In this document: one piece after another, positions 1,569 through 3,058 of the stretch
Position numbering within the stretch: the first letter of the stretch is position 1
Layout of the letters: the number at the start of each line of letters is the position of its first letter
NCBI RefSeq assembly: GCF_947581785.1
Contig: NZ_CANPVO010000016.1
Span: 1-64,000 of the forward strand
From: Candidatus Palauibacter polyketidifaciens
GTDB taxonomy: Bacteria; Gemmatimonadota; Gemmatimonadetes; Palauibacterales; Palauibacteraceae
Reading direction: 5' to 3'
Length of the DNA: 64,000 nucleotides
The notes under the pieces: generated by a model
What the model was told of the DNA's origin: nothing
The model's database searches: none
What the model saw: the letters and a program-made list of their open reading frames with translations, nothing else
Position numbers and translations under genes: made by a program

Positions 1569-1909
1569 CGGGCCCGGGTGCTGCGGCGCAGGCGTCTCGG
1601 ACGCGGAGGTTCCGGGTCGCGTCGACTCCGGGGCCGGAGCGGGGTCTTCGAACCCTCTGCGCCATGACGGGTGACCCGGACGAGCAACCGGTCGATGGTA
1701 GCCCGTTCACCGGTTTCCTTGTTCATGGCATGGACGATCCGGCCACGCTCGCCGACCCACAGTGTGTCGGCACCGAAATCGCCGATGAACCAACTCTGGA
1801 GCGTGTCGGCGGAGGCTTCATCGATCTCCGTGACGCGCGGGCCGTCCAGGATCCAGCAGCGCATGCCGAAGCACGCCGTGAACGCGAACGCGACGAGCAC
1901 GGGGTTCAC
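1556..1909 (-). CDS. Hypothetical small exported or lipoprotein-like protein
   Basis: A 117-residue frame starting at GTG 1909. I do not recognise the family. The first residues form a short hydrophobic segment ([15 protein letters not shown]) with a lipobox-like FTAC, followed by an acidic stretch and a very basic, proline-arginine-rich tail. The middle ([21 protein letters not shown]) looks like real protein, but the basic tail may be read-through of non-coding GC-rich DNA. It converges on queC and overlaps its last 13 bases. The call is tentative. Confidence 0.35.
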
Positions 1910-2045
1910 CGGTTGACCGCCGCAGACAGGTTCATTTCGTAACCTATTCGACGCACTGCGGTTTCACTAGAAGCACAGCCGATCACGGTTGGCGGCGGGT
2001 CGCTGAGCAGGGTGTGTGACCATTCGCACGAGTCGAATCGTCTGC

Positions 2046-2090
2046 CGGACTCGCCGAGCTCGCGACCAGAGGTCGCTCGGTTCGAACCCC
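2046..2090 (-). repeat. Truncated second copy of tRNA-Ser(CGA) T-loop insert unit
   Basis: This is the outer, incomplete member of an 87-bp tandem duplication downstream of tRNA-Ser(CGA). Bases 2048-2113 match 2135-2200 with a single difference (2096 region, G versus A). It holds the T-stem/T-loop start (GGGGTTCGA in tRNA sense) followed by the double-hairpin insert, and it ends before the distal tRNA part. See 2098-2177 for the complete unit. Confidence 0.75.
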
Positions 2091-2097
2091 TTCTTGG

Positions 2098-2177
2098 CGG
2101 AGAGGGGGGGATTGGCTTCCTCCCGCTGCGCGGGGACTCGCCGAGCTCGCGACCAGAGGTCGCTCGGTTCGAACCCC
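2098..2177 (-). repeat. tRNA-Ser(CGA) 3'-end copy split by a 56-nt double-hairpin insert
   Basis: In tRNA sense this unit reads T-stem plus TTCGA, then an insert at 2168-2113, then ATCCC and the acceptor 3' strand CCTCTCCG identical to the real tRNA next to it. The insert lies between the two A residues of the T loop (about tRNA positions 58 and 59). It can fold as one hairpin CCGAGC..GCTCGG enclosing GACC-TCT-GGTC, and a second hairpin CCCGC-GCA-GCGGG. The 5' half of the tRNA is absent, so it cannot encode a tRNA. Confidence 0.8.
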
Positions 2178-2184
2178 TTCTTAG

Positions 2185-2266
2185 CGGAGAGGGGGGGATT
2201 CGAACCCCCAAGCCCGTGAGGGCGCCGGTTTTCGAGACCGGTGCATTGCCGTTCTGCCACCTCTCC
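2185..2266 (-). tRNA. tRNA-Ser(CGA)
   Basis: A class II tRNA in reverse orientation. The acceptor GGAGAGG pairs with CCTCTCC, the anticodon loop is CTCGAAA (anticodon CGA, reading UCG), and there is a long variable arm GCCC-TCAC-GGGC. The T arm GGGGG-TTCGAAT-CCCCC is perfect and the discriminator is G. CCA is not encoded. It is the last gene of the Gln-Ser-Ser-Ser cluster. Confidence 0.95.
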
Positions 2267-2367
2267 GGGTGCCGGCTACCGGGATGCTCTCGGAGACTGC
2301 TGAAGCGGCCGGTACGCGCGGCCGGGGAAGGTGCTCCGAGAGGGCTGCCGCTGTCAAACTTTCGGGG

Positions 2368-2456
2368 CGGAAGGGGTGGGGTTGGCTTCCTCCCGCTGCG
2401 CGGGACTCGCCGAGCTCGCGACCAGAGGTCGCTCGGTTCGAACCCACGAGGGCAGG
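2368..2456 (-). repeat. tRNA-Ser(GGA) 3'-end copy split by a 55-nt double-hairpin insert
   Basis: In tRNA sense it begins CCTGCCCTCGTGGGTTCGA, matching the variable arm and T arm of the adjacent tRNA-Ser(GGA). The insert (2437-2383) follows, then ACCCCACCCCTTCCG, a slightly diverged acceptor strand. The insert is one base shorter than that beside tRNA-Ser(CGA) and otherwise identical, so the same element sits at the same T-loop point of a different serine tRNA. Confidence 0.8.
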
Positions 2457-2478
2457 CATCTTCGACCTGCCTCGTGGG
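2443..2478 (-). repeat. Inverted repeat made from tRNA-Ser(GGA) variable/T-arm sequence
   Basis: A 14-nt arm CCCACGAGGGCAGG (2443-2456) faces a 13-nt arm CCTGCCTCGTGGG (2466-2478) across a 9-nt loop, with one bulged G. Both arms derive from the variable-arm/T-stem sequence of the neighbouring tRNA, one of them inverted. It could act as a hairpin at the 3' side of the precursor; no U tract follows, so I do not call it a terminator. Confidence 0.6.
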
Positions 2479-2490
2479 AAACTGCTCTAA

Positions 2491-2578
2491 CGGACGGGGT
2501 GGGATTCGAACCCACGAGGCAGGGTTGCTGCCCACACGCTCTCCAGGCGTGCGCCTTAGTCCGCTCGGCCACCCGTCC
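2491..2578 (-). tRNA. tRNA-Ser(GGA)
   Basis: Reverse-strand class II tRNA of 88 nt. The acceptor GGACGGG pairs with CCCGTCC. The anticodon stem CACGC/GCGTG encloses CTGGAGA, giving anticodon GGA (reads UCC and UCU). It has a long variable arm and the T arm GTGGG-TTCGAAT-CCCAC. Discriminator G, no encoded CCA. Confidence 0.95.
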
Positions 2579-2612
2579 GGAAGCCTCCGGGGTGAGGCCG
2601 GAGGTAGGGAGG

Positions 2613-2703
2613 CGGAGGGGGTGGGATTGACTCACCCGCTCCGCGGGTTCGTCGAGCTCGCTTCCTGCGGTCGCTCGGTTCGAACCCACGAGACTCTTTC
2701 GAG
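2613..2703 (-). repeat. tRNA-Ser(GCT) 3'-end copy split by a 52-nt double-hairpin insert
   Basis: In tRNA sense 24 nt of variable and T arm (2703-2680) match the adjacent tRNA-Ser(GCT) with one substitution. An insert (2679-2628) follows, then the 15-nt acceptor side (2627-2613), identical to the tRNA. The insert has diverged from the other two, but it keeps the CCGAGC start, the GCGAGCTCG block and the CCCGC-GGA-GCGGG hairpin, with the loop changed while the stem is kept. That suggests structure is conserved. Confidence 0.8.
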
Positions 2704-2726
2704 CCGCCCACACCTTCCTTCTGAGG

Positions 2727-2812
2727 CGGAGGGGGTGGGATTCGAACCCACGAGACTCTCTCGAGTCAACGCCTTAGCAGGGCGCCGCCTTAAGCCACTC
2801 GGCCACCCCTCC
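2727..2812 (-). tRNA. tRNA-Ser(GCT)
   Basis: Reverse-strand class II tRNA. The acceptor is GGAGGGG/CCCCTCC. The anticodon loop CTGCTAA gives anticodon GCT, reading AGC and AGU. It has a long variable arm and T arm GTGGG-TTCGAAT-CCCAC. Discriminator G, no encoded CCA. With the CGA and GGA isoacceptors it covers most serine codons; a TGA isoacceptor is not in the window. Confidence 0.95.
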
Positions 2813-2832
2813 GCAGGATCCTGCTGTCCTGA

Positions 2833-2905
2833 TTGGCCCGCCAGGACTCGAACCTGGAATCTTCTGGTCCAGAGCCAGACGTGTTGCCAATTCCACCACG
2901 GGCCA
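2833..2905 (-). tRNA. tRNA-Gln(CTG)
   Basis: Reverse-strand 73-nt tRNA. The acceptor TGGCCCG pairs with CGGGCCA, and the anticodon loop CTCTGGA gives anticodon CTG (reads CAG). The T arm is CCAGG-TTCGAGT-CCTGG, with discriminator A and no encoded CCA. It is the promoter-proximal gene of the cluster and, unlike the serine tRNAs, has no 3'-end copy after it. Confidence 0.95.
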
Positions 2906-2929
2906 ACGTCCCGATGAGTTGGGGCGTCG

Positions 2930-2958
2930 ATAATACTTGCGGGGGGTCGACGCTTCAA
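2930..2958 (-). promoter_or_regulatory. Promoter of the Gln-Ser-Ser-Ser tRNA operon
   Basis: On the reverse strand TTGAAG (2958-2953) and TATTAT (2935-2930) are separated by exactly 17 nt. A start about 7 nt further would lie roughly 18 nt before the tRNA-Gln 5' end. The AT-rich -10 stands out in GC-rich DNA. No further promoter is obvious between the four tRNAs, so they are probably one transcript. Confidence 0.65.
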
Positions 2959-3058
2959 GCGGCGGTTTCTCTGGATGGCCGGTGGGGAGAGAGGCCGGTC
3001 CGCCGGAGTCGCCGCGACGGAGCGCTAGCGTGGTGTCGCAGACGTCCGCGAGGCCACA

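Follow-up and report, generated by a model that had tools for sequence, protein, structure and literature searches.

Hairpin units in split tRNA 3'-end copies behind serine tRNA genes of Candidatus Palauibacter polyketidifaciens: far-flung relatives of the E. coli tyrosine-tRNA repeats

Downstream of each of three serine tRNA genes of Candidatus Palauibacter polyketidifaciens (Gemmatimonadota) lies a copy of the gene's 3' end, interrupted inside the T loop. The locus raises the question of what such interrupted copies are and how they come to stand behind different tRNA genes. The window was a stretch of 64,000 nucleotides (contig NZ_CANPVO010000016.1). The units were found to be far-flung relatives of the E. 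coli tyrosine-tRNA repeats, their hairpins covaried strongly, and inserts were mixed between tRNA loci; the function and the mechanism of spreading proposed below are inferred. Two covariance models were used: R1, trained on Palauibacter units, and R2, trained only on 12 units of Wenzhouxiangellaceae and Lysobacterales.

Anatomy and fold of the units

ARAGORN and the Rfam tRNA model gave the minus-strand gene order Gln(CTG)-Ser(GCT)-Ser(GGA)-Ser(CGA) (Table 1). As an earlier sequence-only reading of this DNA had stated, the T-stem and acceptor end of each of the three serine tRNAs was copied 3' of its own gene, and in each copy the break fell between the two T-loop A residues (TTCGA/insert/ATCC). 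Each unit ran from the T-stem 5' half ending in TTCGA through the insert to the T-stem 3' strand and the acceptor end, both again of the tRNA upstream, with the variable arm also copied in the GCT and GGA units. Insert lengths (52 nt for GCT, 55 nt for GGA and 56 nt for CGA) and membership in one family agreed with that reading. A composite of the window inserts, used as query against the genome, found four places in the window (E 1e-27 to 6e-11) and one elsewhere (1.5e-15); matches to units were not due to chance, because these E-values lay far below the genome's next-best match (E 0.055).

Behind tRNA-Ser(CGA) a second unit (2047-2088) broke off inside hairpin 2; it had been overlooked before, as had a Ser(TGA) unit on another contig and a diverged Ile unit. 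The tRNA-Gln gene had been described as having no unit, and no 3'-end copy was present in the 1953 nt examined downstream of it. The hairpin-1 motif began 46 (GCT), 53 (GGA) and 16 nt (CGA) downstream of the tRNA. Runs of identity between tRNA and copy were 19 nt (GCT), 16 nt (CGA, the entire encoded tRNA part) and 40 nt in tandem (TGA). Occupied tRNAs of the window's genome had one to two units, and relatives had more. Long open reading frames (GFEPT..., VGSNRAT...) crossed tRNAs and units on both strands (window 1906-2917) and could be annotated as hypothetical proteins in what is tRNA and repeat sequence.

Table 1. Positions of the tRNA genes and unit parts in the window.
Feature	Position	Strand	Basis
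tRNA-Gln(CTG), first gene of the cluster, without unit	2831..2906	-	tRNA-gene call; reading downstream
tRNA-Ser(GCT), intact	2725..2812	-	ARAGORN; Rfam tRNA
GCT unit: copy of variable arm and T-stem 5' half, ends TTCGA	2680..2704	-	read in sequence
GCT unit: 52 nt T-loop insert, hairpins 1 and 2	2628..2679	-	R2 match 2624-2687, E 2.8e-4
GCT unit: 3'-end copy (T-stem 3' strand, acceptor 3' strand, discriminator)	2613..2627	-	19 nt exact identity run with tRNA end and flank
tRNA-Ser(GGA), intact	2490..2579	-	ARAGORN
GGA unit: copy of variable arm and T-stem 5' half, preceded by complementary stretch CCCACGAGGCAGG	2438..2457	-	read in sequence
GGA unit: 55 nt T-loop insert	2383..2437	-	composite query, E 1.3e-27; R2 match 2380-2445, E 6.6e-6
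GGA unit: tRNA-Ser(GGA) 3'-end copy, 2 mismatches	2368..2382	-	comparison with tRNA
tRNA-Ser(CGA), intact	2184..2266	-	ARAGORN
CGA unit 1: copy of T-stem 5' half	2169..2177	-	read in sequence
CGA unit 1: 56 nt T-loop insert	2113..2168	-	composite query; R2 match 2109-2176, E 9.1e-6
CGA unit 1: 3'-end copy	2098..2112	-	0 mismatches; 16 nt run
CGA unit 2: truncated insert, stops inside hairpin 2, without 3' copy	2047..2081	-	composite match 2044-2088; R2 match 1997-2089, E 9.7e-6

The two-hairpin fold first proposed for the inserts was upheld by covariation but was not the minimum-energy fold of the four sequences tried. Across 17 Palauibacter units the structure paired 93% of cells and contained 22 double-changed cells, a number reached by 0 of 500 shuffles and by no slid version (at most 4). 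The longer module of 12 Wenzhouxiangella-group units was 94% paired; its 44 double-changed cells were equalled in none of 500 shuffles, and slid versions gave no more than 11. In both sets the shuffles do not remove relatedness and the slid controls retain it. Row 3 of alignment A2 was one base short. Minimum-energy folds of four single sequences did not contain two separate hairpins, and hairpin 1 extended into the T half (z -0.8 to -3.2); the fold therefore rests on covariation. A full unit was a partial copy of the upstream tRNA with its T loop split by covarying hairpins, ending in the 3' end of that tRNA. By eye, an antisense hairpin was noticed upstream of Ile, Met, Ser(GGA) and Wenzhouxiangella units; that all units have one was rejected after upstream complementarity was scored in 85 units (88 collected, 3 with N dropped): the median z was -0.76 and only a subset had it.

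Occurrence in the genome, the genus and other phyla

The window's genome consists of 52 contigs, and the named Palauibacter records are MAGs by title. All 46 tRNA genes were viewed together with at most 2.5 kb of downstream sequence (shorter at the ends of contigs or of fetched stretches), and a clear unit stood behind 5 of them (four Ser and Ile(GAT)). Pro(CGG) was doubtful: it had a 3' copy and hairpin-like sequence without a T half, and the copy gave no R2 match to E 1. Two further units of this genome were matched by R2, those of Ile (E 0.0023) and Ser(TGA) (E 0.0032). Queried without the T-loop half, the hairpin-1 motif occurred at 6 places in the genome, 6 of 6 at tRNA copies, and none at the random intergenic positions that the sequence-only reading had named as evidence against itself.

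Among relatives, the DNA query was positive in 14 of the 35 genomes of the family, all 14 in the window's genus (17 genomes). Matches of R1 occurred in 15 of 43 genomes of the order, in the window's genus only, and in 16 of the 395 genomes sampled from the phylum, two of them outside the genus (G245, G397). The first of these, from another family of the class, has Palauibacter-like flanks by eye (L077) and is probably contamination; contamination is likewise likely for L154, filed under Gammaproteobacteria with flanks that also look Palauibacter-like. The second, G397 (L078), had a tRNA-Ser copy from the anticodon loop onward, with a longer, different insert at the same place of the T loop.

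A scan with a pattern that included the T-loop half, over one genome per species, returned 49 stretches. By title, 16 were Gemmatimonadota (several Candidatus Palauibacter), 24 Wenzhouxiangella or Wenzhouxiangellaceae, 2 Lysobacterales, 4 Bacteroidales and 1 Dokdonella, and 2 were labelled Gammaproteobacteria (one with Palauibacter-like flanks). The Dokdonella match (L180) had no tRNA beside it and was taken as chance. A viral origin was dropped, with 0 exact pattern matches in viral contigs. The later motif search in the window's genome and in carriers did not use the T-loop half; over 16 carrier genomes it found the hairpin-1 motif at 94 places, some of which look like chance, versus 29 for the reversed control. 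The distinct hairpin-1 contexts numbered 105, a mixture of loci fetched with and without the T half in the query: 94 followed an exact T-loop half (including L180), 4 a degenerate half and 4 a preceding module, and 3 followed neither and were unrelated places.

A site-specific element of serine (class II) tRNAs had been suggested. The single exact site, the tRNA 3' ends and the conserved structure stood, but the restriction to serine did not: the window's own genome had a unit behind Ile, the genus had three behind Met and two behind Ile in G033 and one behind Leu(TAA) in G029, and Wenzhouxiangellaceae and Lysobacterales had units behind Thr, Arg and Glu as well as Ser tRNAs. In the class of L162, R2 matched 10 of 274 genomes, that of L162 included. 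The 14 loci taken from the other 9, some of which are the same array, had a split T loop in 14 of 14; 12, related units of other Gammaproteobacteria, lay behind Glu, Gln, Ser, Arg or Tyr tRNAs, L256 lay before a tRNA-Ser, and L264 had a copied tRNA end but lacked an intact tRNA. In Wenzhouxiangella sp. XN79A (L237), units derived from tRNA-Arg(ACG) recurred over about 7 kb with other sequence between them, including similar stretches.

The hairpin-1 motif lay at tRNA sequences of four Bacteroidales, in one of them (L173) as a three-unit array 3' of tRNA-Arg. Two others (L176, position 306, plus strand; L186, position 4208, minus strand) had a degenerate, near full-length tRNA copy that was itself split at the T loop, one Cys and the other Arg by our own reading. 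At L176 an intact tRNA-Cys followed the degenerate copy, whose D arm looks replaced by another hairpin. Units stood at many different tRNAs in three phyla.

Relation to E. coli tRNA-linked repeats and Rfam RtT

The architecture found here, which the sequence-only reading did not recognise, is that of the tRNA-linked repeats (TLRs, tyrT/RtT) of E. coli. In the passages of PMC8144298 drawn on here, TLRs have been seen behind tyrT since 1978 and were without known function in 2021; E. coli K-12 has 22 at ten loci, with one to five units per locus, their hallmark is that the last 18-19 bp repeat exactly the 3' end of the tRNA or rRNA gene before them, and an early functional claim was retracted. 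The same passages describe the rrA, rrB and rrF TLRs, behind 5S rRNA, as transcribed past the first terminator, processed and bound to Hfq and CsrA (PMC8144298). RtT RNAs are visible on Northern blots in A. pleuropneumoniae according to an extract of PMC4986893, and RtT RNA has a tandem GA motif according to one of PMC7657543; this motif may match the GAGC...GCGA motif of the units here. Extracts of three further sources give a 175-bp VNTR difference at rtT in Salmonella (PMC2658671), list rttR as holding a REP (PMC12306157) and report the rtT transcript as similar to BIME-type elements upstream of other genes (PMC2965389). The link of rtT/rttR to BIME/REP is evidence against the E. coli hairpins having arisen solely in association with tRNAs.

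Window units shared with TLRs the place directly downstream in a tRNA operon, behind the gene whose 3' end they repeat, and a number of units within one to five. The E. coli tyrT/tyrV repeats consist of an antisense T arm, the sense T half AAGGTTCGA, hairpins, GAGTA and then ATCCTTCCCCCACCACCA, and are split at the same place of the T loop as the window units (AAGGTTCGA/...GAGTA/ATCCTTCC). They differ in that tyrV units are 178 bp apart, encode CCA and contain an antisense T arm (GGATGAGAA) and a larger number of hairpins, whereas window units have a two-hairpin insert of 52-56 nt and no CCA, and lie behind Ser tRNAs of Gemmatimonadota.

Applied to the window together with E. coli tyrT, R2 gave 7 matches below E 1e-3, all of them units: 4 in the window (6.6e-6 to 2.8e-4) and 3 of the 4 in E. 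coli (8.9e-5 to 9.5e-4; fourth repeat 0.084). The best non-unit match in the window had E 0.022. R1 found no E. coli repeat, its matches there being confined to their tRNA T arms (E 0.48); units in Wenzhouxiangella-group and Bacteroidales loci were within its reach. Rfam RtT (RF00391) resembles the units in its order of T half, GAGC...GCGA hairpin, more hairpins and 3' tRNA end; unlike the four E. coli repeats used as positive control (L251; 133-138 bits), window positions 1900-3000 gave no match to E 10 and failed its 45-bit threshold, and seven Wenzhouxiangella loci gave none to E 0.5. The antisense T arm of RtT (GATGAGAA, GAUGAGAA), its CCCGAAGGG hairpin and an encoded CCA were all absent from the window units on reading; the antisense arm GAUGAGAA and the CCCGAAGGG hairpin were present in gammaproteobacterial Ser units (L159, L182).

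The best sub-threshold non-tRNA match on the unit strand, Rfam sX4 (RF02223), was discarded since it aligned to tRNA-Ser itself; it covered tRNA-Ser and trailer at window 2115-2277 (minus strand), L182 and L251, so the family model seems to contain tRNA-Ser. The Plastid-psbl-rps4 and Plastid-ycf2 models matched the antisense strand of tRNAs. Searches of an open-access library returned no account of TLRs from Gemmatimonadota, Wenzhouxiangella or Bacteroidales, and the word tRNA is absent from the main text of the Palauibacterales paper PMC10469786. The tyrT-repeat architecture is now seen far beyond enteric bacteria and at many tRNAs, under a common rule by which the tRNA 3' end is copied, its T loop split and the gap filled by covarying hairpins; these comparative data can help in telling an RNA role from a DNA role, and they suggest that the TLR class spreads between tRNA genes.

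Exchange between loci and explanations of the units

A second genome of the same species (G022) had the same structures with different copy numbers, which argues against an assembly artefact. It had two full units and a truncated one at CGA (one full and one truncated in the window's genome), two units at GGA (one in the window's genome) and likewise more units at Ser(TGA). The Ser(GCT) site was occupied in the window's genome, G022, G025 and G020, held a remnant without insert in G030, and was empty in G024, G032, G023 and G026; in G027 a GCT-type unit lay directly behind an island end. Modules were stacked head to tail within one T loop at L014, L026, L058 and L077, and several arrays ended with a truncated unit. 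In loci without long tandem identity, the identity between tRNA and copy was mostly 15-21 nt and stopped near the tRNA end, whether CCA was encoded (tRNA part 18 nt) or not (15-17 nt); this run length fits a unit that must leave the tRNA complete.

Inserts did not sort by tRNA locus. Mean similarity among 25 inserts was 0.82 within a genome at different tRNAs (20 pairs), 0.81 at the same tRNA of different genomes (73) and 0.79 when both differed (204), differences that are small and to which no significance is attached. Nearest neighbours occurred at one tRNA (TGA of the window's genome and of G024, 98%) and across tRNAs (TGA of G026 and GCT of G027, 98%). Similarities and cross-locus neighbours are read together as exchange across loci in addition to inheritance.

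We consider it probable that the window units are TLRs that are co-transcribed with the tRNAs and released as a folded RNA with a role, and whose modules are exchanged between tRNA genes. In this genome, units inside the tRNA cluster would be transcribed together with the tRNAs; the copied acceptor end would be cut like a tRNA end, freeing a small folded RNA for whose role the hairpins would be retained; a release of this kind has been reported for some E. coli TLRs. Recombination through the tRNA 3'-end block could carry modules from one tRNA gene to another, and unequal exchange could raise or lower the number of units. The tRNA would stay intact, since a complete 3' end is rebuilt by every full unit. 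A simple search found a terminator between tRNA and unit in 0 of 22 Palauibacter rows (four of them pairing an empty tRNA with a neighbour's end), and co-transcription is therefore favoured here; co-transcription and release of a small folded RNA are favoured for this genome with moderate confidence. Co-transcription is not general, since among gammaproteobacterial rows (E. coli among them) a terminator-like hairpin preceded the unit in 15 of 27; rrB of E. coli is nevertheless made by read-through of a first terminator, according to a passage of PMC8144298.

Mobility at the level of DNA was ranked as the main rival to the RNA reading, and is regarded as possible but rather doubtful. A recombinase would insert the hairpin module between the A residues of the T loop, with the copied end as att identity block and the tRNA rebuilt, after the manner of tyrosine-integrase islands. 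One exact insertion point at tRNAs for about ten amino acids (Ser, Ile, Met, Leu, Thr, Arg, Glu, Cys, and in related units Gln and Tyr), the head-to-tail stacking, the orthologous Ser(GCT) sites both occupied and empty, the sporadic spread across phyla and the use of the same tRNA-Ser ends by integrase islands are all in its favour. Units hold no gene, however, and E. coli TLRs also lie behind 5S rRNA, without a tRNA T loop (in the passages drawn on from PMC8144298). A RAYT/Y1 transposase or a reverse transcriptase as mover was not supported: Y1 transposase was not found in the window's genome or in 14 of 17 genomes of the genus (present in 3 of 17), and RVT_1 matched in 4 of the 17, one below the cut-off and none the window's genome. 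REP/BIME sequences of RAYT transposases are likewise short intergenic hairpins, whereas the motif here is bound to tRNA ends. An extended form, which we regard as doubtful, would make TLRs cross-phylum mobile modules recognised by structure, inserted only into the T loop of tRNA-end copies by a host recombinase or through the folded strand, with the tRNA rebuilt at every insertion, and carried between Gemmatimonadota, Gammaproteobacteria and Bacteroidales.

Variable copy number between genomes, frequent truncated terminal units and empty sites would also be expected of functionless, neutral debris in tandem. Under this reading a T-loop insertion that once entered a duplicate of a tRNA end spread by slippage and by gene conversion between similar tRNA genes. 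Covariation in two separate alignments (each 0 of 500 shuffles) and a single hairpin-1 motif in three phyla speak against debris and make it improbable. The units might, with very low probability, be remnant attachment sites of integrase islands that enter tRNA-Ser 3' ends in the genus. A common island end (...GGCGGGGAGGCGGACA followed by CCCC[CG]TCCG, with small differences) lay directly before a unit in L020, L029 and L035, and the islands resemble the units in that a tRNA 3' end serves as their identity block and a copy of it is left behind. Unlike the units, the islands carry genes and an integrase (L075) and have no hairpin module; their core is the acceptor end and not the T loop, tandem units occurred without any island, and the hairpins are conserved in structure. 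No island attP with a hairpin module was present in the loci read. A Palauibacter island with a tyrosine integrase at L075 (3126-4340, plus strand) and ends of one island type at L020, L029 and L035 directly precede units of Ser type, which marks tRNA-Ser ends as island targets.
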